Source: Lachnospiraceae bacterium
GTDB lineage: Bacteria > Bacillota > Clostridia > Lachnospirales > Lachnospiraceae
DNA: 64,000 nucleotides
Reading direction: 5' to 3'
Assembly: GCA_017542245.1 (NCBI GenBank)
Contig: JAFXXN010000175.1
Coordinates: 26,488-90,487 of the forward strand
The translations under genes and the position numbers were made by a program. Position 1 is the first letter of the stretch. Each line of letters begins with the position of its first letter. The notes under the pieces are model-generated. The model made no database searches and was not told the DNA's origin. It was given only the letters and a program-made list of their open reading frames with translations. Shown here in pieces: positions 579-63,840 of the stretch.

Positions 579-1949
579 ATGGATAAATTAGATTTTTTGA
601 GAAACGGTGGAGAACTAAGCCGTAAAAATCAGATATCACTGGTTCTGATGCTTAGTTTTCCGGCAATTATGTCCATGATTTCTACTATAATCATGGAATA
701 TATAGATGCCTCCATGGTGGGCAGTCTGGGGTCGGATTGTTCTGCAGCCATAGGTGTAGTTTCTACTACAACATGGCTTATCTCAGGATTATGCTCTAGT
801 GTTGGCACAGGCTTTACTGTAGGATTGGCTCACAGGATAGGAGCCGGAGAAGAAGCAGAAGCCAGAAAGTATGTTAAAACCGGTTTTATAATTGTTGTTT
901 TATTTTCTATGGCACTAATGGGGTTATCTTTGCTTATACATAGGCAGTTACCTGCATGGATGGGTGCGGAAGAAAAAATATTAGATGATGCAGCGGATTA
1001 CTTTTTTATATTTGCGCTTTCTCTGCCTTTGATGCAGATAAATCATACAGGGGCAGGAATGTTAGAATGCAGCGGAAACATGAAGTTACCGGCTATACTT
1101 AATGTTGGTCTTTGTTTTCTTGATGTTCTTTTCAACTCATTTTTCATCTATGAAGCAGGTTTAGGCGTAAAAGGAGCCGCACTGGGTACATTCTGTGCAA
1201 ATGCAGTTGGTACAATATGTATCTTACTTGCTGTTCTTGTTTTTTCAAAGAAACTTCATATCAGGAAAAATGAGCGTGGATTTCTAACGCGTGAAAAAGT
1301 TATAAATGCGGTTAAGATTTCTCTGCCTGTAATGCTAAGTTCTCTTATCATGGGTTTTGCTTATGTACTTTCAACTAAAATAGTAGCTCCGCTTGGCAAT
1401 GTTGCTATAACTGCGAATTCATTTTCAATAACTGCAGAAAGTCTTTGCTATATGCCAGGATACGGCATCTCACATGCGGCGGTTACTCTGGTTGGTCAGA
1501 TGAAAGGTGCCGGAAATAAGAAACAGGAAAAGAACTTTGCATATATGACCGTAATAATAGGTATGATGTTTATGGCATTGTCTGCAATTCTGTTATATAT
1601 ATTTGCACCGCAAATGATAGGTATAATGTCTGCTGAAGAAGAAGTACGGTTACTTGGTACAAAGATACTGAGAATAGAAGCATTTGCGGAGCCAATGTTT
1701 GGCGCCTCAATTGTGGTTGAAGGTGTATTCAGGGGTATAGGAAAAACCAGAATTCCTACAATTCTTAATCTTATAAGTATGTGGTGTATAAGACTTCCGG
1801 CATCTTTCTTCGCTGCCGAAAAATTTGGACTAGTCGGAGTCTGGGTTGTCATGTGCCTTGAGTTATGTTTTAGAGGTATAATATTTCTTTTTTCTATGTG
1901 GAAAGAATATAACAAAACTGAAGATGCGAAGCACCGTTTTGTTACCTAG
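579..1949 (+). CDS. MATE-family multidrug/Na+ (or H+) antiporter
   Basis: A 456-residue polytopic membrane protein with about 12 hydrophobic segments in two related halves, the length and layout of MATE (MatE) exporters. These use a cation gradient to expel organic cations or metabolites. Segments such as GVKGAALGTFCANAVGT and the C-terminal pattern RGIGKTRIP agree with the family; the substrate cannot be inferred. The start at 579 has no good Shine-Dalgarno site and lies only 11 nt after the upstream stop, so translational coupling is likely. The last codons (DAKHRFVT) and the stop are encoded inside the start of a dispersed repeat (1905-1984), so this C-terminus appears to be repeat-derived. 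Confidence 0.9.
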   Translation: MDKLDFLRNGGELSRKNQISLVLMLSFPAIMSMISTIIMEYIDASMVGSLGSDCSAAIGVVSTTTWLISGLCSSVGTGFTVGLAHRIGAGEEAEARKYVKTGFIIVVLFSMALMGLSLLIHRQLPAWMGAEEKILDDAADYFFIFALSLPLMQINHTGAGMLECSGNMKLPAILNVGLCFLDVLFNSFFIYEAGLGVKGAALGTFCANAVGTICILLAVLVFSKKLHIRKNERGFLTREKVINAVKISLPVMLSSLIMGFAYVLSTKIVAPLGNVAITANSFSITAESLCYMPGYGISHAAVTLVGQMKGAGNKKQEKNFAYMTVIIGMMFMALSAILLYIFAPQMIGIMSAEEEVRLLGTKILRIEAFAEPMFGASIVVEGVFRGIGKTRIPTILNLISMWCIRLPASFFAAEKFGLVGVWVVMCLELCFRGIIFLFSMWKEYNKTEDAKHRFVT

Positions 1950-1984
1950 GAAACGCAGAAAGCGTTTTCGGGGTTACATTGACA
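1905..1984 (+). repeat. Double-hairpin leader repeat, copy A
   Basis: 80-nt copy of the window's dispersed repeat. It starts with an A/T hexamer followed by AACAAAA, makes hairpin 1 (GATGC/GCACC arms flanked by AACAAAA/TTTTGTT) and hairpin 2 (GGAAACGC/GCGTTTTC), and ends in ACATTGACA. It overlaps the 3' end of the MATE gene and ends 45 nt before the next start codon. Confidence 0.85.
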
Positions 1985-2029
1985 AAAAATGAAAATACTC
2001 TTGATAAATATTTTAATTGAGGTAATCGG

Positions 2030-2878
2030 ATGACGAAAAAAGATGATTATAATAATCATTTAAAAAATGATTCACGAAATAGAGAATATACACAGGAAGA
2101 ATATGAACTATTGCTTCAGGATGCTAATAATCTTCTGAATGATACAGAAAGAATGATAGCCAGGACAGAAGCGAAAATGACTGTAAGCAAAAAGAAAAAA
2201 TATATGTTTATGATATCTTTCCAAATGATGGTATTTCTAATGATCATAGGTGGATTTATTCTTCTGTTTGCTGTTGTTTATGCAAGTGACTGTATTTCTT
2301 TAAGACATAATACAAAAGCTGCGGTCATAGCAGTTGGGTTTGCAGTTGCTGTTGAAGGACTATTCATTTTCTGGATTCTTAAATCATTAAAGCTTAAGAA
2401 AGAATTTGACAGTGATGTTGAGAGAACATTAATATCCGGTGATTATGAACATATCATATCATCGCATACTCAAAAAAAGTCAAAGAATGTTGAACTTAAA
2501 TATAGAATTGAACTCTTAGAAAAATTATCAAAAAATGAGCTTTTTGAGGCCGAAGATGAATGGGATTCTTTATATAATACTATAACAGACTCATTTTACA
2601 GATTTTCATCGGATTATTATACCTGTATAAAAAATAATAAACTATATAAATATTTTATAGAAATACGATATGAAAACGGATACCCGGACAGTGAAAAAAT
2701 AAAACTTCTCGAAGAAAAAGTAAGTAAAGAAATTGAATCTATAGAGGATTTTGATCTTTCAAGGCAGATGTATCCATTCAAAGAAAAGATAAAGGAAATA
2801 GTTTCGCGGTATTATTCACAGTATGTTTCAGATATCAAACTTAAGGAAGTTTGTGTAGCTGTAGTGCCTGTCAACTGA
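2030..2878 (+). CDS. Hypothetical membrane protein with coiled-coil flanks
   Basis: I do not recognise a family. The 282-residue protein has a charged N-terminal region likely to form a coiled coil (about residues 20-55), two hydrophobic membrane segments (about 60-85 and 97-118) separated by a short loop, and a long charged C-terminal region of about 165 residues rich in Glu, Lys, Tyr and Asp. The likely topology puts both ends on the same side, probably the cytoplasm. Start ATG 2030 follows a GAGGT ribosome-binding sequence. Repeat copy A lies directly upstream. The gene is in the same direction as its neighbours; the function is unknown. Confidence 0.7.
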   Translation: MTKKDDYNNHLKNDSRNREYTQEEYELLLQDANNLLNDTERMIARTEAKMTVSKKKKYMFMISFQMMVFLMIIGGFILLFAVVYASDCISLRHNTKAAVIAVGFAVAVEGLFIFWILKSLKLKKEFDSDVERTLISGDYEHIISSHTQKKSKNVELKYRIELLEKLSKNELFEAEDEWDSLYNTITDSFYRFSSDYYTCIKNNKLYKYFIEIRYENGYPDSEKIKLLEEKVSKEIESIEDFDLSRQMYPFKEKIKEIVSRYYSQYVSDIKLKEVCVAVVPVN

Positions 2879-2936
2879 ATTTGGAGGCATGATTAGGTTT
2901 TTAAAAAATTTAATAATATAAAACAGGAGGTGTTCT

Positions 2937-3992
2937 ATGAAACGTATTCTTTCTTTCATTCTCTGTATTGCTTTAATGCTTAGCATTGCACCAGTCAATG
3001 CCAATGCCGCTGCTAAGTCTGGCAACAAGGGAAAAATTATTGTTCTTGCTACGGGAGGAACAATAGCAGGTGTTGGTGATGTCGGAAAAACAGCCGGATA
3101 TAAGCCCGGTTCATTGACTGCCGATGAGCTGCTTTCTGCAGTACCTCAGCTTGCCGATATTGCAGAAATAGAGGCAGTACAGATATGTAATGTTAATTCT
3201 GATGATATTACTGCAGAAACGTGGCTTACAATTGTAAATACCATTAATGAAAAAGCTGCAGATCCTGAAGTAAAAGGTTTTGTTATTACTCATGGAACAG
3301 ATACTTTGGAAGAAACCGCATATTTTCTAAATCTTACTGTAAAAACAGACAAGCCCGTTGTTCTTACCGGTTCAATGAGACCTTCTACATCAATTTCAGC
3401 CGACGGGCCTATGAACCTTTATGAGGCTGTTTGTGTTGCTGCTTCAGAAGAAGCTGTCGGGCAGGGAGTTCTTGTAGTCTTTTCAGACAGAATATTTGCT
3501 GCAAGAACGGTTACTAAAACAAGTACTTATCATGTAACTGCAATCAGTTCCGGTGAAACAGGAGCAATCGGCATAGTACGTGACGGTGAAGTATTTTTGT
3601 ATGAGAGTCCGGTTAAGAAACATACGACTGAGACGGAATTTGATGTAAGCGGTTTAAAAAATCTTCCTAAAGTTTCAATCCTTTATTTTTCTGTTGATGC
3701 AAGTCCTAAGCTTGTTAAATACGCAGCAAAATATTCGGACGGATTGGTTATTGCCGGGGCCGGGGCAGGAGAGTTCAGTAAGAAATGGATAAAAGCCATT
3801 AAGAAACTTAAAATTCCTGTAGTTATCAGTTCAAGAATTGATGACGGTATTATAACAAAGGAAAATCTGCTTTGCAAGAATACTGTTGCAGCCAATAATC
3901 TTTCACCTCAAAAGGCAGCAATACTTTTAAGGCTTGCATTAATAAATAATGCTGATCAAAAGACTCTTGAAAAAATGTTCCTTGAATATTGA
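2937..3992 (+). CDS. ansB: Secreted L-asparaginase
   Basis: Hydrolyses asparagine to aspartate and ammonia. Both active-site signatures are present: TGGTIAG (about residues 39-45, with the nucleophilic Thr42) and HGTDT (119-123). The N-terminus is a clear signal peptide (positive start, hydrophobic core, cleavage expected near the Ala run at residues 24-26), which points to an exported type-II-like enzyme; 351 residues is normal for that group including the signal. A strong GGAGGTG site precedes ATG 2937. The gene converges on the minus-strand dehydrogenase genes, with a perfect palindrome between them acting as a possible shared terminator. The gene symbol follows the exported form; substrate affinity class is inference. 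Confidence 0.88.
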   Translation: MKRILSFILCIALMLSIAPVNANAAAKSGNKGKIIVLATGGTIAGVGDVGKTAGYKPGSLTADELLSAVPQLADIAEIEAVQICNVNSDDITAETWLTIVNTINEKAADPEVKGFVITHGTDTLEETAYFLNLTVKTDKPVVLTGSMRPSTSISADGPMNLYEAVCVAASEEAVGQGVLVVFSDRIFAARTVTKTSTYHVTAISSGETGAIGIVRDGEVFLYESPVKKHTTETEFDVSGLKNLPKVSILYFSVDASPKLVKYAAKYSDGLVIAGAGAGEFSKKWIKAIKKLKIPVVISSRIDDGIITKENLLCKNTVAANNLSPQKAAILLRLALINNADQKTLEKMFLEY

Positions 3993-4007
3993 CAAATGAT
4001 AACTGAC

Positions 4008-4037
4008 GACAGGGGACGGTTCGAACCGTCCCCTGTC
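4008..4037. terminator. 30-nt perfect palindrome containing GGGGACGG, bidirectional terminator candidate
   Basis: The sequence is an exact inverted repeat with no unpaired loop (left arm GACAGGGGACGGTTC). It lies between the converging asparaginase and aldehyde dehydrogenase genes, 16 nt from one stop and 7 nt from the other. A short T-rich tract follows on the + strand. A related GGGGACGG hairpin occurs at 6823-6860, so this also belongs to a repeat type common in Clostridia. Confidence 0.75.
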
Positions 4038-4043
4038 TTTACA

Positions 4044-5423
4044 TTATTTCAAAAACATTTTGAGCATCATACCATATAGTTTTTTGTAAGGCTGGTATCT
4101 CATAGGAAGATCGATCCAGCGTTTCTTGTCAAGAATGCTCTTTTTATGAGAGAAAGTTTCAAAGCCTGCTTTACCATGGTAAGCGCCCATGCCTGACTCA
4201 CCGAATCCGCCAAAGCCCATATTGTTTGTAGCCAGATGTACAACACAATCATTAATACATCCACCGCCAAATGCAAGTTCAGTGGTTACATATTTTATCT
4301 TCTGTTTGTTTTTGCCAAAGTAGTAACCGGCGAGAGGATGAGGCTTTGTATTAAGAAAGCTTACTAACTCACGTAAGTTCGTGAATGTGAGTATCGGCAT
4401 TATAGGGCCGAATATTTCTTCACCCATGATTTTATCATCCCAAGTAACATTATCCATAACAGTGGGCTCTATTTGGAGCTTTTTGATGTCATGATATCCA
4501 CCGTATACAATCTTTTCTTCATCAAGAAGACCTATAAGACGATTGAAATGTTTTTCATTTATGATTTTGCCGTAACTAGGATTACTTAATGCAGAATCGG
4601 TATACTGTCTGGATATCTCATGTTTTACAGCTTTGATAAACAGGTCTTTTATGCTTTCTTCAACATATATATAGTCTGGAGCAACACATGTCTGACCGCA
4701 ATTTAAGAATTTACCGAATACTATACGTCTTGCTGCCAGTTTTATATTTGCCTCTTTGTCAACTATGCAGGGACTTTTGCCGCCGAGTTCCAGCGTTACA
4801 GGAGTAAGGTTGGGTGCAGCGGATTTCAATACTTCTCGGCCTACATTTTTGCTACCTGTAAAGAAAATATAGTCAAAATTTTGAGCGAGCAGACTCTTGT
4901 TTTCTTCGCGTCCACCTGTAATACATGTTACATATTCAGGTGCAAAAACAGCTTCTATCATTTTGCGAATAGCTTCAGAGGTGTTAGGAGAGTATGCACT
5001 GGGTTTAACTATACAGGTATTTCCCGCAGCGATAGCATCTACTAAAGGTTCGATCGTTAGAAGAAAAGGATAGTTCCAGGGGCTCATAATGAGTACTGTA
5101 CCGTAGGGGACAGATTTTATAAAGCTTGAACTGTGAAACTGAACAAGAGCAGTCAACACATGTTTGTCTCGGGCAAAGCGGGGAGTGTTTTTGATCATAT
5201 ATGAAATCTCCGAAAGTGTGAGTCCTGTCTCGCACATATAACTTTCAAATTCACTCTTGCCTAAGTCTGCCTTTATGGCAGCATTTAACTCATCCATATG
5301 CTCATGGATATAGCGTCGTAATCTTTTTAATGCGGTTATTCTATATGAAACATCATATGTATGCCCTTCTGCAAAGAATTTGCGCTGGGCATCTATTTTT
5401 TTTCTGATTTCTGATTCTGTCAT
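4044..5423 (-). CDS. Aldehyde dehydrogenase, NAD(P)+-dependent (ALDH3-like)
   Basis: Oxidises aldehydes to carboxylates. The 459-residue length is that of class 3 ALDHs, which lack the N-terminal extension of other classes. The general base Glu212 lies in LELGGKSP and the catalytic Cys246 in NCGQTC; the cofactor-binding TGS motif is at about 189-191. The C-terminus is basic and hydrophobic (YGMMLKMFLK), which could associate with the membrane, as seen in some ALDH3 enzymes. A GAAAGG site precedes the start. It lies 62 nt downstream of the alcohol dehydrogenase on the same strand, and the pair probably interconverts an alcohol, its aldehyde and the acid. The true substrate is not evident. Confidence 0.9.
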   Translation of the reverse strand: MTESEIRKKIDAQRKFFAEGHTYDVSYRITALKRLRRYIHEHMDELNAAIKADLGKSEFESYMCETGLTLSEISYMIKNTPRFARDKHVLTALVQFHSSSFIKSVPYGTVLIMSPWNYPFLLTIEPLVDAIAAGNTCIVKPSAYSPNTSEAIRKMIEAVFAPEYVTCITGGREENKSLLAQNFDYIFFTGSKNVGREVLKSAAPNLTPVTLELGGKSPCIVDKEANIKLAARRIVFGKFLNCGQTCVAPDYIYVEESIKDLFIKAVKHEISRQYTDSALSNPSYGKIINEKHFNRLIGLLDEEKIVYGGYHDIKKLQIEPTVMDNVTWDDKIMGEEIFGPIMPILTFTNLRELVSFLNTKPHPLAGYYFGKNKQKIKYVTTELAFGGGCINDCVVHLATNNMGFGGFGESGMGAYHGKAGFETFSHKKSILDKKRWIDLPMRYQPYKKLYGMMLKMFLK

Positions 5424-5485
5424 TTAAATGTGCCTTTCTGTATTTTTGTGGGGAATAGCTATTATCAAGCAAGTTTGAATGGCTT

Positions 5486-6694: not shown

Positions 6695-6717
6695 GATCTT
6701 TTCCTTTGTGTTAAATA

Positions 6718-6735
6718 TTTGGGATTATGCCCAAA
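6718..6735. promoter_or_regulatory. Inverted repeat TTTGGG-n6-CCCAAA at the adh transcription start, possible operator
   Basis: A perfect 6-bp inverted repeat with a 6-nt spacer lies directly downstream of the minus-strand promoter and covers the predicted transcription start of the dehydrogenase operon. It could be an operator or a 5'-end hairpin. It does not match the Rex consensus. Confidence 0.45.
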
Positions 6736-6740
6736 GCACT

Positions 6741-6768
6741 ATTTTATCAGTATTTTATAAAATGTCAA
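6741..6768 (-). promoter_or_regulatory. Promoter of the adh-aldh operon
   Basis: On the minus strand TTGACA (6763-6768), a 16-nt spacer and TAAAAT (6741-6746) give a near-consensus vegetative promoter about 45 nt upstream of the alcohol dehydrogenase start codon. Confidence 0.7.
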
Positions 6769-6822
6769 GCATGTATTAATGAAAACTACATTATGTGATT
6801 ATTAAAACTATATAAATAATAA

Positions 6823-6860: not shown

Positions 6861-6979
6861 CGCCATTTTAGCCCCCAATTATGGACAGGTGAAGATCATA
6901 TTTTACAAAATTATAGCAATATAAAACAGTCCATTATATACATATGAAGTTCATCCTTGAAAAAACAATAACTGTATCC

Positions 6980-8005: not shown

Positions 8006-8033
8006 AGTTCCCCTTTCCTTATATATCCCAAGG

Positions 8034-8091
8034 TATCAAAACAGAAGATATTACCTACCTCTTAGCGGAGTATCATTTTGTTACCTTGACA
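8034..8091 (+). repeat. Leader repeat, copy B (lacks hairpin 2)
   Basis: Matches the first half of the repeat, with an enlarged hairpin-1 loop (insert CCTACCTCTTAGC) shared with copy C at 9125. It passes straight from TTTTGTTACC to TTGACA, so the second hairpin is deleted. It lies 245 nt before the next start codon, farther than other copies. Confidence 0.7.
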
Positions 8092-9101: not shown

Positions 9102-9130
9102 GTGACAAAATATAAAATATATGGTAATAT
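9102..9130 (+). promoter_or_regulatory. Promoter of the GH31 gene, abutting the leader repeat
   Basis: GTGACA (9102-9107), 17-nt spacer and TAATAT (9125-9130). The -10 hexamer is the first hexamer of repeat copy C, so the transcript would begin within the repeat. Confidence 0.55.
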
Positions 9131-9219
9131 AACAAAATAGAAGATATCCCCCACCTCTTAGCAAAGCATCATTTTGTTAACGTGGAAACGTAGAAGGCGT
9201 TTTTGTGGTGACATTGACT
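9125..9219 (+). repeat. Leader repeat, copy C (expanded hairpin-1 loop)
   Basis: TAATAT-AACAAAA start, hairpin 1 with the CCACCTCTTAGC insertion also seen in copy B, hairpin 2 (GGAAACG.../GGCGTTTTT) and the ACATTGACT end. It ends 30 nt before the GH31 start codon. Confidence 0.85.
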
Positions 9220-9249: not shown

Positions 9250-11616
9250 ATGCTTCCATGTATTCCTTACGATCAAAATGTGATAACAGATTTTGAAAAG
9301 AATAGCGATTATGTTATTCTTAAGCTGAAAGAAGGAAAGATCAAGTTAACGCCTGTTAATGAGAGAAGTATACGTATTATGTATACTAAAAAGGACTTCT
9401 TTTCTAATGAAGACTTGAATCCTGATAAGCAGGCAAAGCCCGGTCTCATAGACCTTGTTCCATATACAGACTTTGAGATTAATGATGGTACCGAAAAAGA
9501 TCTGATAGAATTTTCTTTACCTAAGCTTATCATAGAAATAGACAAAAAAACGAATTCATTTAATTACTATGACAGAAATGAAGATGGTTCTAAAGGAAAG
9601 CTTTTGCTTAAGGAAGGCAAAAGATCTAAAGAAATTGAAGAATTTCCTATTTACCGAATAGCTGAAAATTCGGGTAAAAAGGAATATATAGAAACAGCTG
9701 ACGGAAAGAAAGAAGTGTTTAGAGATGCCGGGAAGATACAGACCGGCTCTGCATACCATACCTGGTTAAGACTTAAATTTGATGAGGATGAAGCTTTATA
9801 TGGATTAGGTCAACATGAAGAAGGCTTTGGAAACTTAAGGGGTAAAAGGGTTTATCTTCATCAGGGTAACAGAAAGATAGCCATTCCGGTCCTTGTTTCA
9901 TTAAAAGGCTATGGAATCATGATTAATTCTTATAGTCCGTCAATCTTTAATGATACCGAAGAAGGAACATACTATTATACAGAAGCTGATGAAGAAATGG
10001 ACTTCTTCTTCATGAATGGCAACAGTCCTGACGGAGTAATAAAAGAATACAGAAAAATCACAGGAAAAGCTGCTATGCTTCCTAAGTGGGCATATGGATA
10101 TATTCAGTCCCAGGAAAGATATGAAACTCAGGAAGAAATACTGAATGTTGCAGAACAATATCGAAAAAGGAATATTGGCTTAGATTGTATAGTCCTTGAC
10201 TGGATTTCATGGGAAGATAACTGCTGGGGGCAGAAAAGTTTTGATCCGGCAAGATTTCCGAACACCGATATGATGACAAAAACACTGCATGACAACCATG
10301 TTCATTTTATGATTTCTATCTGGCCCAACATGGCTGAGATTACAGAAAATCATAAAGAGATGAAAGCTGCCGGATTAATGCTTCCGGGATACAGTTTGTA
10401 TGATCCTTTTAAAGCGGAAGCACGAAAGCTGTACTGGAAACAGGCAAATGAAGGTTTGTTTAAACATGGGATTGATGCTTGGTGGTGTGATAACAGTGAA
10501 CCCATAGCTCCGGAATGGATGAGACAGGTTAGGCCTGACAGTGCCAAAATGTTTGCAGATTATATTTCTGAAACATCATATATCATGCCTGCGACAAAAA
10601 CTAATGCTTACGGTCTTTATCATGCGCAAGGTATATATGAAGGCCAAAGATCCGTAACAGATGAAAAGAGAGTAATAAATCTTACACGAAGCGGATATAT
10701 AGGTCAGCAAAAATATGGAACAATTCTCTGGTCAGGAGATATCTCTGCTTCATGGGATACATTAAGAAAACAGGTTTCTGCCGGTACAGGCTTCTGTGCA
10801 TCAGGTATGCCTTACTGGACTGTTGATATAGGTGCTTTTTTCGTAAAGAACGGAATAAACTGGTACTGGGACGGAGAATATGATGAAGGTCCTAAGGATC
10901 CGGCATATTGTGAACTTTTTACAAGATGGTATCAATGGGCAGCATTTCTTCCGATTTTCCGAGGACACGGAACTGATTTCAGAAGGGAACTGTGGGAGTT
11001 TGACAATTCCGACGCTCCTTTCTATAAAGCATTATTAAAAGCAAACAGAGTAAGATATGAACTTATGCCGTATATTTACTCTTTAGCCGGTATGGTATGG
11101 CTTGAAGATAGTTTGATCATCAAACCTCTGGCATATTCTTTCGGTGATGACAAAAATACGTGGAACATAAAGAATCAATATATGTTCGGAGATTCCATGA
11201 TGGTCTGTCCTGTGACAGAACCGATGTATTTTAATACAGAAGTTGTTTCACACACGCGAAAGGTATACCTGCCTAAAGGCTGTGGGTGGTATGAATATTT
11301 TACCTCACGGTTCTATGAAGGCGGTCAGTGGATTGATGCAGATGCTGAACTTGATCATATTCCGGTATTTGTCCGCGAAGGGTCGATAATCCCTGTAACT
11401 GAGTTTGCGCTTTCTACGGAAGAACAGTCTAACGATATAGTATTTATTGTTTATCCCGGAAAAGATGCTTCATTTAAGCTTTATCAGGACAGTGGTGACG
11501 GATATGCTTATGAAAAGGGAGCATTTACGGTAACGGATATTGTCTGGGATGATAAAGAGCAGAAGCTTACTCCTGATGATATTAACTATAGAGTGATTAG
11601 TAATATAACAAAATAG
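9250..11616 (+). CDS. Glycoside hydrolase family 31 (alpha-glucosidase/alpha-xylosidase)
   Basis: A retaining exo-alpha-glycosidase of 788 residues without a signal peptide, so it probably acts on imported oligosaccharides. The catalytic nucleophile is Asp414 in DAWWCDNSEP, and the acid/base candidate is Asp497 in WSGDISASWD. The N-terminal beta-sandwich (about 1-270), the catalytic barrel (about 275-600) and C-terminal beta domains are all present. The WWxDxxEP form of the nucleophile motif resembles xyloglucan alpha-xylosidases and related enzymes more than classical maltases, but specificity is inference. A GGAG site precedes ATG 9250. The last codons (SNITK-stop) are read from the start of repeat copy D. 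It shares the glycan theme of the GH3 and GH94 genes. Confidence 0.92.
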   Translation: MLPCIPYDQNVITDFEKNSDYVILKLKEGKIKLTPVNERSIRIMYTKKDFFSNEDLNPDKQAKPGLIDLVPYTDFEINDGTEKDLIEFSLPKLIIEIDKKTNSFNYYDRNEDGSKGKLLLKEGKRSKEIEEFPIYRIAENSGKKEYIETADGKKEVFRDAGKIQTGSAYHTWLRLKFDEDEALYGLGQHEEGFGNLRGKRVYLHQGNRKIAIPVLVSLKGYGIMINSYSPSIFNDTEEGTYYYTEADEEMDFFFMNGNSPDGVIKEYRKITGKAAMLPKWAYGYIQSQERYETQEEILNVAEQYRKRNIGLDCIVLDWISWEDNCWGQKSFDPARFPNTDMMTKTLHDNHVHFMISIWPNMAEITENHKEMKAAGLMLPGYSLYDPFKAEARKLYWKQANEGLFKHGIDAWWCDNSEPIAPEWMRQVRPDSAKMFADYISETSYIMPATKTNAYGLYHAQGIYEGQRSVTDEKRVINLTRSGYIGQQKYGTILWSGDISASWDTLRKQVSAGTGFCASGMPYWTVDIGAFFVKNGINWYWDGEYDEGPKDPAYCELFTRWYQWAAFLPIFRGHGTDFRRELWEFDNSDAPFYKALLKANRVRYELMPYIYSLAGMVWLEDSLIIKPLAYSFGDDKNTWNIKNQYMFGDSMMVCPVTEPMYFNTEVVSHTRKVYLPKGCGWYEYFTSRFYEGGQWIDADAELDHIPVFVREGSIIPVTEFALSTEEQSNDIVFIVYPGKDASFKLYQDSGDGYAYEKGAFTVTDIVWDDKEQKLTPDDINYRVISNITK

Positions 11617-11680
11617 AAGATGCAGAGCATCGTTTTGTTACCGAGGAAACGCTGAAGGCGTTTTAGAGGTGACATTGACA
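11601..11680 (+). repeat. Leader repeat, copy D
   Basis: Full 80-nt copy: TAATAT-AACAAAA, hairpin 1 (GATGC-AGA-GCATC), hairpin 2 (GGAAACGC/GGCGTTTT), end GACATTGACA. It encodes the end of the GH31 gene and stops 53 nt before ilvB. Confidence 0.9.
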
Positions 11681-16615: not shown

Positions 16616-16671
16616 CATTTAACTAAATTAATTTAAGTACTTTATTCAATATTCAAGAGGTGGATTGTCTT

Positions 16672-16932
16672 ATGAAAAAAAGATATAAGGAACTCTGCAC
16701 GTGCAAACATTGCGGTAAAACGTATGAAGGATATAAAAATACAAGTACCTGTGATGACTGCAAAGATATTGACAACATGATCTTCACACAGATACGAGTT
16801 TATCTTAGAAAATATCCAAACAGTAATGCAATCCAGATATCGGAAGCCCTTGGCATAAGTACAAACCTTATCATGAAATATATAGATGAGGGAAGGCTTT
16901 TCTTTGGAAAGGGAACATTTTCAAAATTATAA
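16672..16932 (+). CDS. YvyF/TIGR03826-like zinc-ribbon and HTH protein
   Basis: A short protein of 86 residues with two CxxC pairs near the N-terminus (CTCKHC and CDDC), consistent with a zinc ribbon. A helix-turn-helix-like segment follows (IQISEALGISTNLIMKYIDEG). This architecture matches the YvyF/TIGR03826 proteins often found in flagellar operons, but no flagellar gene is nearby. ATG 16672 is preferred because AGAGGTGG ends 8 nt upstream; the in-frame GTG at 16660 overlaps that site. It may be a small regulator. The stop codon overlaps the first bases of repeat copy E. Confidence 0.72.
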   Translation: MKKRYKELCTCKHCGKTYEGYKNTSTCDDCKDIDNMIFTQIRVYLRKYPNSNAIQISEALGISTNLIMKYIDEGRLFFGKGTFSKL

Positions 16933-17002
16933 CAAAACATAAGATAAAGCATCATTTTTTTTACATGGAAACGCTAAGGATGTTTCCGGAGCAATATTGA
17001 TA
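16925..17002 (+). repeat. Leader repeat, copy E (diverged)
   Basis: AATTAT-AACAAAA start, shortened hairpin 1, hairpin 2 with GGAAAC/GTTTCC arms (fully paired despite sequence change), and TTGATA at the end. It ends 19 nt before ruvA. Confidence 0.75.
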
Positions 17003-23965: not shown

Positions 23966-24041
23966 TTATTATAAAAAATGATGCAGAGCATCGTTTTGTT
24001 ACTGAGGTAATGCTGAAGGCATTTTCGATGTAACATTGATG
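23966..24041 (+). repeat. Leader repeat, copy F
   Basis: Shortened left arm; hairpin 1 GATGC-AGA-GCATC with TTTTGTTAC; hairpin 2 with AATGC/GCATT, a compensated change from the usual AACGC/GCGTT. It ends ACATTGATG, 28 nt before the kinase start, and lies within the predicted 5' UTR. Confidence 0.85.
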
Positions 24042-30580: not shown

Positions 30581-30618
30581 GAAGGAAACACTAAAAGTGT
30601 TTCGATGTGACATTGACT
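30581..30618 (+). repeat. Leader repeat, copy G (hairpin 2 only)
   Basis: GGAAACAC/GTGTTTC hairpin, a compensated variant of GGAAACGC/GCGTTTTC, followed by GATGTGACATTGACT. It ends 56 nt before the start codon. Confidence 0.75.
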
Positions 30619-36425: not shown

Positions 36426-36462
36426 AGAAAACACCGAAGGTATTTTTGTGGTGACATTGACA
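36426..36462 (+). repeat. Leader repeat, copy H (hairpin 2 only, diverged)
   Basis: AAAACACC/GGTATTTT hairpin followed by GTGGTGACATTGACA; it ends 37 nt before hpt. Confidence 0.65.
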
Positions 36463-44220: not shown

Positions 44221-44300
44221 AAATATAACAAAACATAAGATGCGGAGCATCGTATTGTTACCGAGGAAACGCAGAAGGCTTTTTCGAGGTAACATTGACA
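44221..44300 (+). repeat. Leader repeat, copy I
   Basis: Complete 80-nt copy: AAATAT-AACAAAA, hairpin 1 (GATGC-GGA-GCATC), hairpin 2 outer pair GTTACC/GGTAAC, end ACATTGACA. It lies between the nrnA terminator and truB, 25 nt before the start codon. Confidence 0.92.
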
Positions 44301-56554: not shown

Positions 56555-56555
56555 T

Positions 56556-58151
56556 ATGGGTGAGGCAAAAGAAAAAGTTCTGTCTGTCAATAACCTTGTC
56601 GTAAATTTCCGTACTGACAACGGTTTGGTACATGCGGTAAGGGATGTTTCATTTGAGCTGTTCAGAGGCGAAACTCTTTGTATAGTCGGTGAATCCGGTT
56701 CAGGTAAATCTGTTACTTCGAAAGCGATAATGGGTATTCTTTCAAAAAATGCCATTATAGCCGGGGGAAACATTATGTATCGCGGTGAGAACCTCTTGGA
56801 AGTTTCCGAAGATGAGTTCTACAAAATCCGCGGTCATAAAATAGGAATGATTTTCCAGGATCCGCTTTCTTCACTGAATCCTATCGTAAGAATAGGAAAA
56901 CAGATTACTGAGGCAATGCTTCTTAACAATGACAAGTTAAAGCTTATGTATAACGATCTTATCAGCGATGACATGATTCGTTATAAAAATACTTTAGCCA
57001 AGATGAATATTGCCATTAATAACGAGAAAAAGATCATCGATGGTCTTGAATCAGCTCTGAAGGCAAACAATTATAAATCCGAAACAGAAAGAAAAGCAGA
57101 TGAGGATTTACTTAAACAGAAAAAAGCTTCTTTTAAGTCTTTTGAAAGAGAAACAAGAGCAAAATATACCGAAGATGCAAAAGCTTTAAAGATTAAGCTA
57201 AAAGATACAGAAAAGCAGGCTAAACAAAAGGTAAAAGAATATAAAAATTCTGTATCTGAAGAGTATAAGAAAAAAGTCGAAGCGATAAAATCTAAAAATC
57301 TTTCGGCAAGTGATGCTAAAGCTGCATTAAAAGAAGCCAAGGAAGAGTATCACGATAAGTTAAAGATTACAAAGGCAGAAGCAAAACGAAGAGCTCTTCA
57401 GATAATGAAAGAAGTCGGTATCCCTGAGCCTGAGAAAAGATACAAACAGTATCCGTTCGAATTTTCAGGAGGTATGAGACAGCGTATAGTAATTGCGATT
57501 GCACTTACCGCTTCACCTGAGATTCTTATCTGTGATGAACCGACTACAGCGCTAGATGTTACGATACAGGCACAGATACTTGAGCTTATAAACAGGATAA
57601 AGGCTGAAAGAAATCTTTCATGTATATTTATCACACATGATCTTGGTGTCGTTGCAAATATGGCAGACCGAGTAGCTGTAATGTATGCAGGAAAAATAGT
57701 TGAGTACGGAACTGCTGAAGATATTTTCTATGATCCCAAGCATCCTTATACCTGGGCACTGCTTTCAAGTATACCGGATGTTGATTCAAAGGAAAAACTT
57801 GAAGCAATTCCCGGAACACCTCCTAACATGATCTATCCGCCTGATGGAGATGCATTTGCTGCACGAAGCAAATATGCTATGAACATAGATTTCAGGAAGC
57901 AGCCTCCGTATTATAAGGTAAGTGATACTCATTATGCTGCCACATGGCTTCTTGATCCTAAAGCTCCTAAGGTTGAAATGCCTAAGATCGTAAGTGAACG
58001 TATCCGTATATCACTTGAAGCAGCCAAGGCAAACAGTGCGGCTAAGATCGATCCCAAAAAAGTTGATATCAATGATCCGGATCCTGACAAAAAGCCGAAG
58101 AAACCTGATGGTCCTGACTACGAGATTTCGGTTACACTTATTCCCGGATAA
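56556..58151 (+). CDS. oppD: Oligopeptide ABC transporter ATPase OppD with coiled-coil insertion
   Basis: ATP-binding subunit of 531 residues (typical 330-350). Walker A is GESGSGKS (about 46-53) and the Q-loop is MIFQDPLSSLNP. A highly charged Lys/Glu/Ala-rich coiled-coil insertion (about 125-270) follows before the signature FSGGMRQR (about 303-310), then Walker B ILICDEPTTALD, and the C-terminal oligopeptide-transporter domain (HPYTWALLSSIPDV, GTPPNMIYPP). ATG 56556 has AAGGAAG 8 nt upstream; the GTG at 56547 overlaps that site. Catalytic motifs are intact, so it should be active. Confidence 0.92.
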   Translation: MGEAKEKVLSVNNLVVNFRTDNGLVHAVRDVSFELFRGETLCIVGESGSGKSVTSKAIMGILSKNAIIAGGNIMYRGENLLEVSEDEFYKIRGHKIGMIFQDPLSSLNPIVRIGKQITEAMLLNNDKLKLMYNDLISDDMIRYKNTLAKMNIAINNEKKIIDGLESALKANNYKSETERKADEDLLKQKKASFKSFERETRAKYTEDAKALKIKLKDTEKQAKQKVKEYKNSVSEEYKKKVEAIKSKNLSASDAKAALKEAKEEYHDKLKITKAEAKRRALQIMKEVGIPEPEKRYKQYPFEFSGGMRQRIVIAIALTASPEILICDEPTTALDVTIQAQILELINRIKAERNLSCIFITHDLGVVANMADRVAVMYAGKIVEYGTAEDIFYDPKHPYTWALLSSIPDVDSKEKLEAIPGTPPNMIYPPDGDAFAARSKYAMNIDFRKQPPYYKVSDTHYAATWLLDPKAPKVEMPKIVSERIRISLEAAKANSAAKIDPKKVDINDPDPDKKPKKPDGPDYEISVTLIPG

Positions 58152-58228
58152 TATAACAAAATAGAAGATGCGGAGCATCATTTTGTTACCAAGGAAACAC
58201 AGAAGGCGTTTTCGAGATAACATTGACT
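58149..58228 (+). repeat. Leader repeat, copy J (inside the opp operon)
   Basis: TAATAT-AACAAAA start whose first bases are the oppD stop; hairpin 1 GATGC-GGA-GCATC; hairpin 2 GGAAACAC/GGCGTTTTC; end ACATTGACT. It ends 31 nt before oppF. Confidence 0.9.
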
Positions 58229-58259
58229 ATGACATTATGTAAAGGATATAGTACAGATT

Positions 58260-59651: not shown

Positions 59652-59653
59652 AG

Positions 59654-60034
59654 ATGTCTGTTATCAGAAAGCTCTTTTTACATTCACCCAAAAGTTATAT
59701 AATAGCATTGTCGATTGCCACAGTTATAGCCGTTATCAGACTTGCTACCACGGGCTTTGATTTATTGTTTTATTATATTGATGCACTTACTATAGCAGGA
59801 GCAATTGTCTTTCTTGTCGGGATGCTTGCTGTTGTATCCAGATTCGGTGCCTTTGATATGTTCAGGTATTCGTTTTCTTCATTAAGAAGATCAGGTAAGT
59901 ATAAGGATTATTACGAGTACGAAAGTAAAAAGCAGGAAACCCGGACCCGGACAGAGCTGACTTTTATGTGTTATTTTACTGTAGGAGCTGTTTTTTTAAT
60001 AGTAGGCTTCTCTTTATATATCTTCATGCCATAA
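59654..60034 (+). CDS. DUF3899-like small membrane protein
   Basis: A 126-residue membrane protein with about three hydrophobic segments (16-32, 38-65, 103-124). It has a central conserved-looking cytosolic stretch (FGAFDMFRYSF, then YYEYESKKQ) that resembles the DUF3899 family, whose function is unknown. It starts 2 nt after the oppF stop with GAGG overlapping the end of oppF, so it is co-translated with the transporter and may be an accessory subunit; this is inference from position. Confidence 0.72.
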   Translation: MSVIRKLFLHSPKSYIIALSIATVIAVIRLATTGFDLLFYYIDALTIAGAIVFLVGMLAVVSRFGAFDMFRYSFSSLRRSGKYKDYYEYESKKQETRTRTELTFMCYFTVGAVFLIVGFSLYIFMP

Positions 60035-60165
60035 TAAAATATATTTATATCCTGGTATTAAAAAAAATTTTTAAAAATATACTTGAAATTGAAACGGAAA
60101 TGTAGTAGTCTTATAAAGCGGTATTGGAGTTTATAATTGTTTAATCATAAAAGAGGCGGGATATA

Positions 60166-62043
60166 ATGAAAGAAAAAAACAATAGCGACAAGAAGTTACT
60201 GATCGCAGGCATACTTTCCATTGTGCTTGGATTGATAGCTTTGGGAATTATTCTCAAAGTGGCTATATTCAACAATGACAGTGATGGATCGACTTCACAG
60301 GTCAAAGCAAACGATACTCAGGTAACCGGCATTCCCGAAAGTGAGGTCAAAGTTACCGAAGGCGTCTCTCCGATTACAGAAGAGATGAAACAGGTTCTTG
60401 ATTCCGATAAGTTTTATCAGGGCATTACCATTGATGGCATAGATGTATCCGGTAAAACAAAAGAGGAAGTAAAGAGCCTTGTTCTTGCGAGCGAAGGAAC
60501 CGAATCCGAAAATATTCCACAGATTGACTTTAAATTCCAATTGGATTCAGATCAGATTTCCTTAAATTCTGATGGGTTAAAATTTGAAAGCAACATCGAT
60601 GAAATCATCGAAGAAGCATACAATCTCGGACGTACAAGCAACAAGGCAGGAGATGAGGGTCTTCTTGACAGATATGACAAGATAAACGCCTTAAAGCTTT
60701 CTCCTCAGTCATTTACCACCGAAAAAATTATCTCTGCCGAAAATATAGCAGAAGCTGTACATACCGCACTTGATCCGTATAATAAGAAGGCTGTGGATGC
60801 AACCGCAACAGGTTTTGATACCGAAAGCCTTACATTTATCATTTCGGATTCTGCACCCGGTTATGAAATAAATATCGATGAAGTTATTAATGAAGTTTCA
60901 ACAGCTATAGAAAACAAAGAATATAATAAGGTTATTTCGGTTACGGCAGAAGTTACTCAGCCTGAAATTACAGCTGAATTTTTAAGAGGATACCTTACAA
61001 AGGTTTCTTCCACAACATCTACTACAACAAGCAGTTCTAACAGAAATACAAATATCAGCCTGATCTGCCAGAAGATTAACGGACTTGTACTTCAGCACGG
61101 CGAATCATGGGATTTCAACAAATATATCGGAGAACGTACTCCTGAAGCAGGTTTTAAGGAAGCAGCCGGTATATATAACGGAAAGATCCGTCAGGAATAC
61201 GGCGGCGGTATCTGCCAAGCAAATGCCATGATATTCCACAGTGTAGTTAAAGCAGACCTTCAGGTTGACGAAAGAAATCCTCATACCTGGCCCAGTGATT
61301 ATGTAGAAATCGGAACCGATGCGACAGTTACATGGGGCGGTGCAAATTTCAGATTTACAAATAACTCCGGTTATCCCATGGCATTCCATGCATATTATTC
61401 CAATCAAAAGGTAACCGTTGAAGTATACGGTCGTCCTTTGGCTGACGGTATGCGCATAGAGCTTAAAGGAGAGGTTAATTCACGTACAGCTGCTAAAATA
61501 GAGTATGTAGGTGATACAGAGATGTCTGTTGGAAAGACTGTTACTGAAAGCAGTGGTCATGATTCCATAACAGCCTCAGCATATAAAGTATATTATGACA
61601 AAGACGGTAATGAGATAAAAAGAGAAAAGGCTTATTCAAGCAGTTATCCCATGATAAATAAGGTTGTCAGAGTCGGATTGCTTGCACCGGACGGAGAAAC
61701 AATATTTAAGCTGAACAAATCTACCGGTGAAGTTACAGCTCCCAGCGGTTATGTTCCTCCGGAGCCTACAGATGAACCTGAGCCTACTGACGAACCTGAA
61801 CCTACTGACGAACCTGAGCCTACTGATGAGCCCGAGACTACTCCGGATCCTACCGAGAAGCCTACAAAGACTCCAGATCCTACCGATGAGCCTGAACCTA
61901 CAGAACCTCCGGCAGATACTCCTGAACCTACTTCAGAACCAGAGCCTACAGATGTTTCTGAGCCCACACCAGAGCCTACGGTAACACCTGATCCGGAGCC
62001 TACAGAGGAGCCTGGACCTACAGAAACAGTACCTATGGGCTAA
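60166..62043 (+). CDS. VanW-family cell-wall protein with Pro/Thr/Glu-rich tail
   Basis: A 625-residue protein anchored by one N-terminal membrane helix (about 11-33) with the rest outside. A putative peptidoglycan-binding (PG4/YoaR) domain starts near residue 84 (FYQGITIDGIDVSGKTKEEV). A VanW domain lies at about 285-415 (LQHGESWDFN, GGGICQANAM, WPSDYVEIG). A beta-rich domain follows, then a ~95-residue tail of PTDEPE-type repeats. VanW proteins occur in wall-related and some glycopeptide-resistance loci, but biochemical function is not known. GAGGCGGG precedes ATG 60166. There is no LPXTG sorting signal; the tail probably spans the wall. Confidence 0.88.
   Translation: MKEKNNSDKKLLIAGILSIVLGLIALGIILKVAIFNNDSDGSTSQVKANDTQVTGIPESEVKVTEGVSPITEEMKQVLDSDKFYQGITIDGIDVSGKTKEEVKSLVLASEGTESENIPQIDFKFQLDSDQISLNSDGLKFESNIDEIIEEAYNLGRTSNKAGDEGLLDRYDKINALKLSPQSFTTEKIISAENIAEAVHTALDPYNKKAVDATATGFDTESLTFIISDSAPGYEINIDEVINEVSTAIENKEYNKVISVTAEVTQPEITAEFLRGYLTKVSSTTSTTTSSSNRNTNISLICQKINGLVLQHGESWDFNKYIGERTPEAGFKEAAGIYNGKIRQEYGGGICQANAMIFHSVVKADLQVDERNPHTWPSDYVEIGTDATVTWGGANFRFTNNSGYPMAFHAYYSNQKVTVEVYGRPLADGMRIELKGEVNSRTAAKIEYVGDTEMSVGKTVTESSGHDSITASAYKVYYDKDGNEIKREKAYSSSYPMINKVVRVGLLAPDGETIFKLNKSTGEVTAPSGYVPPEPTDEPEPTDEPEPTDEPEPTDEPETTPDPTEKPTKTPDPTDEPEPTEPPADTPEPTSEPEPTDVSEPTPEPTVTPDPEPTEEPGPTETVPMG
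61759..62030 (+). repeat. Coding tandem repeat, PTDEPE-type units
   Basis: The 3' end of the VanW gene consists of imperfect ~18-nt units (gag-cct-act-gat-gaa-cct pattern), becoming less regular downstream. Copy number could vary by slippage. Confidence 0.8.
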
Positions 62044-62089
62044 TTTTATTATATAATCTGCATAATATGGGCATTATTGCAGAAAAAAC

Positions 62090-62118
62090 TTGACAAGTTA
62101 TTGTACATAGGCTATAAT
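62090..62118 (+). promoter_or_regulatory. Consensus promoter of rpsO
   Basis: TTGACA (62090-62095), 17-nt spacer, TATAAT (62113-62118): a perfect vegetative consensus. Confidence 0.92.
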
Positions 62119-62124
62119 ACCTAT

Positions 62125-62229
62125 GCTTTAGGACTCTGACTCAGTTTCATGGCATCTCCGGCCTGTTACTTAGTTAAGCTGGTTTTAAACCGGCGTGAGT
62201 CGTCAATAATATTCTAGGAGGAAAAAAAC
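62125..62229 (+). ncRNA. Structured rpsO leader, probable S15 autoregulatory element
   Basis: About 105-nt leader in which GACTCA (62138-62143) pairs with TGAGTC (62196-62201) around an inner hairpin GCTGG/CCGGC (62178-62194). S15 leaders in Firmicutes repress translation by binding S15; this fold is consistent with that, but the S15-binding motif is not verified. The coding start follows with a GGAGG site. Confidence 0.62.
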
Positions 62230-62496
62230 ATGATTACAAAGGAAAAGAAAGCAGCAATCATTGCTGAATTCGGAAAAACACCGAACGATACCGGATCTAC
62301 TCAGGTTCAGGTAGCAATTCTTACAGCAAGGATTAACGAGTTAACAGAGCACTTAAAGGTTCATAAGAAGGATCATCATTCTAGACGTGGTCTTCTCATG
62401 ATGGTAGGACAAAGACGTGGTCTTCTTGAATACCTTAAAAAGACAGACATTACTGAATATCGTGCTCTTATCGAGAAGCTCGGTCTTAGAAAATAA
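62230..62496 (+). CDS. rpsO: 30S ribosomal protein S15
   Basis: Primary 16S-binding ribosomal protein, 88 residues, with [21 protein letters not shown]-type core and the conserved [12 protein letters not shown] and [10 protein letters not shown] segments. A GGAGG site precedes ATG 62230. It has its own consensus promoter, a structured leader and a terminator, so it forms an independent unit. The usual partner pnp is not next to it; folC follows. Confidence 0.98.
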
Positions 62497-62501
62497 TCAT
62501 G

Positions 62502-62530
62502 AAACGCCTGTCTTAAGACAGGCGTTTTTA
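62502..62530 (+). terminator. rpsO terminator
   Basis: AAACGCCTGTC-TTAA-GACAGGCGTTT with a short T-run. It ends about 15 nt before folC, so folC depends on read-through or an unseen promoter. Confidence 0.88.
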
Positions 62531-62544
62531 GTTGGTAAAAAACT

Positions 62545-63804
62545 ATGACATATGATGAATCGCAGGAATACATCCATACCACATGTACTGCCGGATCGGT
62601 ATATGATCTTGAATGCATAAAAACATTGCTGAAAATCCTTGACAATCCGGAAAAACATTTAAAGATAATACATATTTCCGGAACAAACGGAAAAGGCTCA
62701 GTTTCCAGGATGATCATGCATATCCTAAAAGAAGCAGGATATTCTGTCGGAATATTTAATTCACCTTTTCTTCAGAAAAGAAACGAATATCTCTGTATAA
62801 ATGGAAGAGATGCTTCAGACAGTGAGTATGCGCTTATTGCAGGTATAGTAAAAAATGCTGTTGAGAAAAATCTGACTTCTGTACATAACAAGGGGCAAGA
62901 AGAATGTATCTTAAAAAGAAGACCGACAGAATTTGAATTTTCCTTTGCAATGGCTATGGAATATTTCTGCAGAAGCAAATGTGATATTGCAATAGTAGAA
63001 TGCGGACTTGGCGGAACAAATGATGCTACAAATATTTTCACCAAAAAAGAACTCAGTATCATTACTAATATAGGCCTTGATCATGTAAGGCTTCTGGGTA
63101 CAACTTTAAAGGATATTGCAGGACAGAAGAGCGGTATCATAATCAATAACGATACCGTCATAGCTTATCCTTCAGATAAAGAAGCTATAAAAGTAATCAG
63201 CAGCTCCTGTAAAAAGAAATCTGCCAAGCTCATTATTCCTGAGGACATTCCTTTAAATATTTCCGAAATTGCACTTGACGGTGAATTTCAGAAAAAGAAT
63301 GCCATGGTTGCTCTTTCCGCAATCGAAGTTTTAAAGACAAAAGGCTATCATATAAGCCGTAATGATATTTCAAAAGGATTAATAAATGTTAAATGGCCCG
63401 GACGCTTTGAAACATTAAGTAAAAATCCCATTGTTATAGCTGACGGCGGGCATAATTTACAGTGTATAAAAGCCTTATGCGAATCTTTGGACGTAAAAGG
63501 TATAAAAAAAGCGATTTTTGTAATAGGAATTATGGCAGATAAGGACTATACCGCCGTATTTAATATTTTAAAAGAATATGCAGTATATGTTATAGCAACC
63601 GAACCAGAAAATCCAAGAAGTCTTGACTGCACTGAGATTGTTAAAATATTTAATAATTATGGTATACCGGGAAAATCAGTAAAACAACCGGCCGAAGCAG
63701 TATATTCAGCTTTAGATCTTATAAGAACCAAAGAATATGATTTACCTATTGTTATAACCGGTTCGCTCTATATGATGAATGAGATAAGAAAACCGTTTAT
63801 ATAA
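62545..63804 (+). CDS. folC: Folylpolyglutamate synthase/dihydrofolate synthase
   Basis: Mur-ligase-fold enzyme adding glutamate to dihydropteroate or folates, 419 residues. The ATP-binding loop is SGTNGKGSV (about 46-54), followed by SPFLQKRNEYLCING, the ECGLGGTNDATN motif (about 149-160), and the C-terminal domain with ADGGHNLQCI. Only a weak ribosome-binding sequence precedes ATG 62545, which fits low expression. Its start is 15 nt past the rpsO terminator. Confidence 0.93.
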   Translation: MTYDESQEYIHTTCTAGSVYDLECIKTLLKILDNPEKHLKIIHISGTNGKGSVSRMIMHILKEAGYSVGIFNSPFLQKRNEYLCINGRDASDSEYALIAGIVKNAVEKNLTSVHNKGQEECILKRRPTEFEFSFAMAMEYFCRSKCDIAIVECGLGGTNDATNIFTKKELSIITNIGLDHVRLLGTTLKDIAGQKSGIIINNDTVIAYPSDKEAIKVISSSCKKKSAKLIIPEDIPLNISEIALDGEFQKKNAMVALSAIEVLKTKGYHISRNDISKGLINVKWPGRFETLSKNPIVIADGGHNLQCIKALCESLDVKGIKKAIFVIGIMADKDYTAVFNILKEYAVYVIATEPENPRSLDCTEIVKIFNNYGIPGKSVKQPAEAVYSALDLIRTKEYDLPIVITGSLYMMNEIRKPFI

Positions 63805-63808
63805 CCAT

Positions 63809-63840
63809 TGAAACACTTAAAGGCGTTTTCGAGGTGACAA
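63809..63840 (+). repeat. Leader repeat, copy K (partial)
   Basis: Only the second hairpin region remains (AAACACTTAAAGGCGTTTTCGAGG, ending GTGACA); the TTGACA terminus is missing. It is 144 nt before the next gene. Confidence 0.6.

Follow-up and report, generated by a model that had tools for sequence, protein, structure and literature searches.

A dispersed hairpin repeat in one Lachnospiraceae genus, apparently mobile and found almost only in sense orientation

A stretch of 64,000 nucleotides (nt) from a Lachnospiraceae bacterium (GenBank assembly GCA_017542245.1, contig JAFXXN010000175.1, positions 26,488 to 90,487, referred to here as the window) raises the question of why one small double-hairpin element should recur in front of many unrelated genes, always on the same strand. 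Such an element could be a leader inherited together with the genes it precedes, or a mobile sequence which settles where leaders lie. A first-pass annotation of the window favoured a common post-transcriptional role. The best reading of the evidence assembled here is that the repeat family is new and that it inserts, or survives, only in the sense direction. The fuller account, that it is a small non-autonomous mobile repeat family of one Lachnospiraceae genus which enters untranslated transcribed DNA in the sense direction, is given a probability of about one half.

The element has a short form of ~78 nt with two hairpins and a long form of ~157 nt with four, both lengths being counted from a point two bases ahead of TATAAC. 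The sequence of a full short copy is TATAACAAAA(T/C)AGAA-GATGC-GGA-GCATC-G-TTTTGTTACC-GA-GGAAACGC-AGAAG-GCGTTTTC-GA-GGTGACATTGAC. Stem 1 pairs AACAAAA with TTTTGTT and encloses GATGC:GCATC, stem 2 pairs GGAAACGC with GCGTTTTC, and the tail is CATTGAC. The long form, seen in several copies, extends leftwards as TATAACAAAATAGAAGAT-ATCCCCCACCTCTTAGCGTAGCGAAGGTGGGGGG-AGATCTTC-GTTTCAGGCGGGGTTCAAGCCCCGACTGAAAT-GAGATGCGGAGCATCG-TTTTGTTACC before the second stem. Judged by eye, the short form is the long form with its middle deleted, and the window copy at 9126 is an intermediate. Long copies are probably under-counted, because several contigs (C146, C149, C68 and C169) start or end within this form.

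The family was traced with a covariance model, R1, built from seven of the eleven copies in the window. The genome to which the window belongs, probably a metagenome-assembled genome of a rumen Lachnospiraceae (4.72 Mb in 203 contigs, 97% complete, 8.6% contaminated), holds at least 141 matches at E≤0.001 among the best 150 scored. Two genomes of the same genus, G007 and G013, hold 86 and 128 matches at that threshold, and the other members of the genus between 0 and 24. Under stricter filters and E≤1e-4, matches were found in 13 of 61 genomes, this one included, all of the same genus; there were none in 11 of the 24 same-genus genomes or in any of the 37 others. Across 299 genomes from 298 genera of the family, the stricter filters returned only this genome and one doubtful match of 49 bits in a different genus (G291, L417), where TATAAT is followed by two hairpins in a similar layout with a different sequence, and which was not counted. 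Rfam gave no match in the window at gathering scores, and eight matches to one long form, all far below them. Viral contigs searched with one exact 24-base pattern, and plasmids and phages searched by BLAST with one long form, yielded no match.

Evidence for mobility comes from comparison of orthologous gaps. The flanks of 204 copies in the three copy-rich genomes were compared, and 18 copies had a usable ortholog. For 16 of these the element was undetectable at any ortholog, whilst the remaining two represent a single gap viewed from both sides (C53 of this genome and L268 of G007) in which the copies lie at different points, so that an insertion point common to copy and ortholog was seen in none of the 18. 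Where this genome carries a 96-nt copy, the ribosome site of the G007 ortholog (L272) follows the stop codon directly; conversely, 20 nt in this genome occupy the place at which G007 holds a copy (L267). Three of the window copies illustrate the same pattern. The copy before truB (44222) has no detectable counterpart at the three orthologs compared, the copy before ruvA (16926) has none in G001 and G008, and the copy at 58150 was not seen in G013, G008 or G022. Decayed remnants were recognised by eye at 58150 in G010, where hairpin 2 persists, in G013 at one of the nine ruvA orthologs, and in the comparison of C146 of this genome with L370 of G013.

The consensus itself also varies between lineages. 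The letter after AACAAAA is T rather than C in 46 against 12 copies in this genome, 3 against 25 in G007 and 10 against 30 in G013, whilst the tail reads GAC-ATTGA rather than GAC-TTTGA in ratios of 67:4, 7:30 and 6:39, respectively. Since consensus letters differ by lineage, amplification must have continued after the lineages split. Lineage-specific letters and unshared insertion points together argue, on the evidence of sequence comparison, that the family is a mobile repeat and not an inherited leader.

Orientation is the second pillar. Of the 150 scored matches in this genome, 148 could be placed relative to genes, two lying outside the stretches compared. Between genes on the same strand, 99 copies are in sense and three in antisense (p 7e-26); a further 27 lie in divergent gaps, 13 in convergent gaps, five at the ends of stretches and one inside a called gene. 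Same-strand gaps of the relatives give 35 sense against 0 antisense in G007 and 30 against 1 in G013 (65 against 1 together), from counts covering 52 and 62 copies. Of the 27 copies in divergent gaps, 22 are nearer to the start of the gene towards which they point. In convergent gaps, counted as 14 when the copy placed inside a gene by the caller is included, 11 lie within 10 nt of the stop of the gene on their own strand; two lie within 10 nt of the other gene's stop, and both of these also abut their own. The fixed orientation and leader position proposed from the window therefore hold throughout this genome and in both relatives. The first-pass annotation had added that random orientation, or equal occurrence between converging genes, would speak against its view: orientation proved far from random, although some copies do lie between converging genes.

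Position is less sharply defined. Many copies begin at or just after an upstream stop codon or near a promoter, and full copies often provide the stop from their own TATAAC. A copy was classed as leader-type if it scored at least 42 bits and lay either in a divergent gap or further than 60 nt from the upstream stop. For 21 of 50 such copies, the -10 box of the best sigma-70-like site starts 1-10 nt ahead of the element; the same holds for 3 of 46 copies which abut a stop, and shuffling gives a mean of 4.6 (maximum 8 in 40 shuffles). Copies below 42 bits and most long forms, in which the model match begins after GCCCC, fell outside this test. The prediction that transcription would begin at the element is thus borne out for this class. 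In divergent gaps 15 of 27 copies lie 0-60 nt from their own start, where 6.8 are expected, and two lie that near to the other start. Overall, orientation is the strong effect and position the weaker one, because uniform placement explains much of the position pattern.

Within the window itself, reading, alignment and model search agree that all eleven places named by the annotation hold family sequence. The shared double hairpin described there is complete in only seven of them (73-103 bits, E≤1.6e-15), which match the model by construction. The other four are half copies, with the half assigned by eye (20.6-35.2 bits, E 4.6e-6 to 0.02). These eleven are the best matches in the window and the next is noise (E 0.86). 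They are as follows.

1906..1983, + strand: full short-form copy (hairpin 1, hairpin 2 and CATTGAC), 99.5 bits; overlaps the last 44 nt of open reading frame (ORF) 579-1949.
8032..8088, + strand: partial copy at 8034, hairpin 1 only, with a longer ATATTACCTACCTCTTAGC loop, 26.8 bits; in the divergent gap before ORF 8336.
9126..9218, + strand: full copy with a loop 15 nt longer (by eye, a partly shortened long form), 87.9 bits.
11602..11679, + strand: full short-form copy holding the stop codon of ORF 9250-11616, 103.1 bits.
16926..17001, + strand: older full copy, 20 nt before ruvA, 73.1 bits.
23966..24040, + strand: full copy within a divergent gap, 77.9 bits; a hybrid histidine kinase gene starts 29 nt downstream.
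30583..30617, + strand: partial copy at 30581, hairpin 2 and tail, directly behind TATAAT (by eye), 26.8 bits.
36426..36461, + strand: partial copy, hairpin 2 with the tail, 35.2 bits; a phosphoribosyltransferase gene follows after 38 nt.
44222..44299, + strand: full short-form copy, 26 nt before truB, 100.8 bits.
58150..58227, + strand: full short-form copy in the gap between two genes, of which the second encodes an oligopeptide-type ABC protein, 102.4 bits.
63809..63840, + strand: partial decayed copy, hairpin 2, 4 nt past the stop of ORF 62545-63804, 20.6 bits (E 0.02).

That all copies lie on the + strand is confirmed by the model search, and carries little weight within the window as most genes there are on that strand; the genome-wide count of 99 to 3 is the proper test. 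The distance of 19-56 nt to the start codon, claimed for nine copies, was recounted as 20-57 nt for nine of the ten whose downstream start lies inside the window. Promoter-like sequences accompany the copies at 9126 (-35 GTGACA, 17 nt, -10 TAATAT at the left edge of the element) and 23966 (TTGACA-17-TAAAAT, with 14 nt from the beginning of the -10 box to that of the model). Two features go beyond the first account: the long form, and the overlap of the copies at 1906, 11602 and 58150 with the end of the preceding gene, whose stop lies inside the element or at its left edge. The genes behind the window copies encode a GH31 protein, a thiamine pyrophosphate (TPP) enzyme, RuvA, the hybrid kinase, an HD-domain protein, the phosphoribosyltransferase, TruB and the oligopeptide-type ABC protein, and share no common theme.

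Two neighbouring features of the window may be recorded here. A short ORF before ruvA (16620-16930) has relatives in other genomes, and its TAA stop is part of the TATAA at the left edge of the element. Separately, at positions 61758-62025 within ORF 60166-62043 a 34-nt unit recurs in nine imperfect copies, with spacings of 18-54 nt, which seem to code for a proline/glutamate/threonine-rich stretch.

The fold of the element was examined on 141 copies. Paired cells make up 91.5% against 89.6% in shuffled alignments, and double-changed cells number 51 against 16.5, although these counts lean towards the main fold, to which the alignment was fitted. One long-form RNA has a minimum free energy of -76.3 kcal/mol against a shuffled mean of -41.9 (z -8.66), with none of 200 shuffles as good. 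In stem 1, single changes which keep a G-U pair in the sense RNA outnumber those which keep it only on the other strand (seen as AC) by 42 to 11, a significant excess; with rare states only (at most three copies) the figures are 8 and 4, which is not significant. Neither the GATGC stem (22 vs 20) nor stem 2 (36 vs 26) shows a significant strand-specific bias. This wobble pattern allows some selection on the sense RNA, yet does not show selection after insertion. An alternative fold, which pairs GTTACC with GGTGAC and retains the other two stems, was rejected: it gives 34 double-changed cells against 16.3 shuffled, and its inner pairs are without wobble bias (13 vs 15).

Several side observations concern the structure and surroundings of the element. 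A GGGGTTCAAGCCCC hairpin in the long form (GCGGGGTTCAAGCCCCG, L216:3234-3393) has the loop letters of a tRNA T-arm, perhaps by chance. Long-form copies at L168 (C169) and L212 (C85) are interrupted on their left side by an identical foreign end (..CTACTTGAGGGTATCATATCAT), which may belong to an insertion sequence (IS) inside the repeat. In G007 one long and one short copy stand directly head to tail (L273/L382, C172:74882-75026). Another dispersed repeat, with the core CATTCTGAGCGAAGCGAAGAA, adjoins several copies in the relatives (L273, L055 and L380 in G007, L367 in G013).

How might a mobile repeat come to lie so uniformly in sense? In the preferred account, the ~157-nt form and its internally deleted ~78-nt derivative have multiplied separately in each lineage. 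New copies would enter sense-wise, at a point immediately past either a stop codon or a -10 box, and each would become the intercistronic or leader RNA of its host gene, presumably transcribed with it, before decaying. The likeliest reason for the sense bias would be a target on the exposed non-template strand, in the open promoter or in an R-loop where no ribosome follows the polymerase, and a putative enzyme supplied in trans could use this single-stranded DNA. Such a target would yield sense orientation whatever the direction of replication. Any effect on host genes would be a secondary matter, for example a change in mRNA decay brought about by a hairpin at the 5' end or between cistrons. 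The more specific proposal, that the element reads the polarity of transcription through the non-template strand or the mRNA and, by sense insertion at promoter bubbles and past stops, seeds operons with hairpins, is put forward tentatively and is more doubtful than the account as a whole.

A number of observations weigh against this account. Three antisense copies exist in this genome and one in G013. Divergent gaps hold 22 copies running with replication and five against it, which transcription alone does not predict. The gene models come from a simple codon-model caller which misses short genes, such as the one before ruvA, so that some copies classed as leader-type are misclassed. The enrichment of copies near stops is only about twofold in wide gaps (9 vs 4.7 expected, n=40) and convergent gaps (11 vs 6.0, n=16), and is absent from narrow gaps (32 vs 30.6, n=58); with enrichment this weak, sense-only survival could arise without sense-only insertion. 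No mobilising protein was found in searches confined to Y1 transposases and reverse transcriptases, other enzyme families not being covered. G007, with its 86 copies, gave no match to either enzyme, though it is 81% complete, and the single Y1 transposase gene of this genome is RAYT-like and stands beside a different repeat. As for an autonomous parent, the genes before 18 truncated copies include no evident transposase and look like unrelated host genes, as judged by eye without a library search.

The most serious competitor, somewhat less probable than the preferred account, is insertion in random orientation followed by selection, antisense copies in transcribed gaps being harmful and lost whilst sense copies are tolerated. 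The latter would do little harm, since they terminate open frames and spare ribosome binding sites: read forward, the short consensus meets a stop in each of the three frames (offsets 2, 10 and 66), whereas the reverse strand has stops in one frame only. Many copies do lie where insertion disrupts little, and the near-uniform placement in narrow gaps speaks for this explanation. Stops, however, matter only for insertions which precede the host stop. The youngest copies are moreover no less biased than the others: those of at least 85 bits are 23 sense and 0 antisense, of 30, and the long forms in G007 and G013 are 14 sense and 1 antisense, of 25. Convergent gaps are biased as well, without a start or promoter to protect. 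Nor does the TTGACA-like tail carry a signal for an outward promoter on the sense strand, the strand examined: -10-like sites near 17 nt occur in 13 of 103 copies, against 3-14 at ten other spacings.

RNA-mediated copying, as in short interspersed elements (SINEs), would have the transcript reverse-transcribed from its 3' end and inserted, leaving 5'-truncated copies with a fixed CATTGAC end. A local profile search indeed gave 35 matches without the 5' half and six without the 3' half, or 32 and 5 once three opposite-strand echoes and one long copy are removed. Among the 35, 31 have an upstream gene on the same strand, 15 begin 1-14 nt after its stop and seven overlap that stop, by 11 nt at most; identity to the consensus reaches 90-94% in several truncated copies. 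The wobble bias of stem 1 would also fit a selected sense RNA. Quicker decay or deletion of hairpin 1 could, however, mimic truncation, and target duplication was not found. Reverse transcriptase genes are present in 14 of the 24 same-genus genomes with no clear link to copy number, G007 giving no match. We regard this route as rather improbable.

Less probable still is a conserved cis-regulatory RNA, whether a leader or an RNase or protein site, maintained by selection on host genes. Copies at transcript starts and between cistrons, the modest covariation and the recognition by eye of hairpin 2 in two decayed orthologs would all suit it. Against these stand the absence of any shared insertion point, the same-genus genomes without a match, the unrelated downstream genes, the lineage-specific consensus, the lack of significant strand-specific wobble outside stem 1 and the empty Rfam search. 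The interpretation in the first-pass annotation is thus partly supported. Its observation of the repeat is confirmed, and a common post-transcriptional role is possible given the modest covariation and a wobble signal significant only in the first stem, but a shared regulatory role is not shown and the contrast it drew with repeat insertion does not stand, the copies being lineage-specific insertions before genes without common function.

Equally unlikely is mobilisation as a single-strand element of the REP or PATE type by an IS200/IS605 or RAYT enzyme, inserting behind a TA-rich target. The element has hairpins near both ends and no terminal inverted repeats (the best 8-nt match of one end to the complement of the other is 4/8), the left-edge TATAA is present in some element-free orthologs too, with TTTAA, GTAA or CTAA in others, and one old copy of 44 bits (C72:35942) lies 1.6 kb from the only Y1 gene of this genome. 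That gene, however, is flanked by other palindromes, and G007 lacks a Y1 match. Y1 matches occur in 12 of the 24 same-genus genomes, with four in G013, and 20 Y1 loci of ~3 kb contain only one family match, at chance level (E 0.22). TATAA as the sole cause of orientation was rejected, being nearly strand-neutral in element-free same-strand gaps (184 vs 153), and truncated copies join at other sequences. The Y1 locus merits a note of its own: at L194 (C72:32900-39000) the RAYT-like gene, at ~4429-5136, has several GGGGTCTGACCCC palindromes around it and seems to form a REP/RAYT system of its own.

An orientation set by replication, with the template of the lagging strand as target or through a strand-polar motif of the chromosome, is the least probable explanation of all. 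On contigs with clear skew, 95 of the 96 sense copies in same-strand gaps follow the leading strand, as do most copies in divergent gaps. Genes themselves, however, are ~90% leading by base counts, and convergent gaps show only 9 against 5. Of the 12 copies which point against the clear replication polarity given by GC skew, eight lie close to a gene and in its sense direction (one in a same-strand gap, four at 18-48 nt from their own start and three within 18 nt of their own stop), with one antisense and three unclear.

Small folded repeats are widespread in bacteria. The repeat YPAL lies just after stop codons, as do the folded attC sites of integrons, whose AAC/GTT ends bring the present family to mind. 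REP sequences with their RAYT transposases are likewise high-copy hairpins in gaps, but the RAYT-like gene of this genome is surrounded by an unrelated GGGGTC/GACCCC palindrome and not by the present repeat. The family shares with miniature inverted-repeat transposable elements (MITEs) its small size, strong folding, multiple copies and lineage-specific insertion with empty sites. It differs in the lack of terminal inverted repeats and of a detectable target-site duplication: duplications of at least 4 nt accompany 2 of 23 long copies in G007 and G013 against a shuffled mean of 1.3, with boundaries uncertain by a few bases and no empty site from the same species for comparison.

The comparisons which follow draw on excerpts of the sources cited. 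The pneumococcal BOX, RUP and SPRITE repeats are also small, folded, intergenic and held to be non-autonomous, and BOX, likewise of modular size, can contain the stop codon of the gene before it, as in 36 cases (PMC3049150). Their orientation mirrors coding bias, with 60.8-63.3% leading, and they are over-represented between convergent genes (PMC3049150); the near-exclusive sense orientation between same-strand genes described here contrasts with the 60.8% leading given there. RUP has terminal inverted repeats (PMC2229807), unlike the present family. ERIC and YPAL are mobile hairpin repeats co-transcribed with their neighbours; YPAL shows empty and filled sites, and the effect of ERIC on mRNA decay depends on orientation (PMC2229807). 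Both have target duplications (PMC2229807), and are set apart from the present family by their descriptions rather than by sequence comparison. CIR, from Caulobacter and Brucella, resembles it in lacking terminal inverted repeats and in an RNA whose 5' and 3' halves form separate stem-loops, its mechanism of mobility being unknown; CIR carries a GANTC methylation motif, and the excerpt makes no mention of sense-only orientation (PMC2229807). Most TAACTGA repeats in one genome of Beggiatoaceae point forward, in the direction of the start codon; some repeats overlap an upstream stop, the author naming forward-frame stops as a factor in their distribution (PMC4679880). They are, however, tandem heptamers without predicted structure, whereas the present family is one folded element. 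The repeats bcr1-bcr18 of the Bacillus cereus group are similarly intergenic, in untranslated regions and operon gaps; bcr1-3 are MITE-like and bcr3 is correlated with longer mRNA half-life, sense-only orientation not being mentioned in the passages drawn on (PMC3446304). In the open-licence literature, no published repeat from Lachnospiraceae, and none with an exclusive sense orientation, was recognised as this family.

The family carries a warning: element-free orthologs should be looked for before a covariance-supported, gene-leading repeat is called a regulatory RNA. Beyond this, 164 sense copies against four antisense over three genomes, the youngest included, make two questions testable, namely whether transcription can steer transposition in bacteria, and how operons acquire their leader and intercistronic hairpins.

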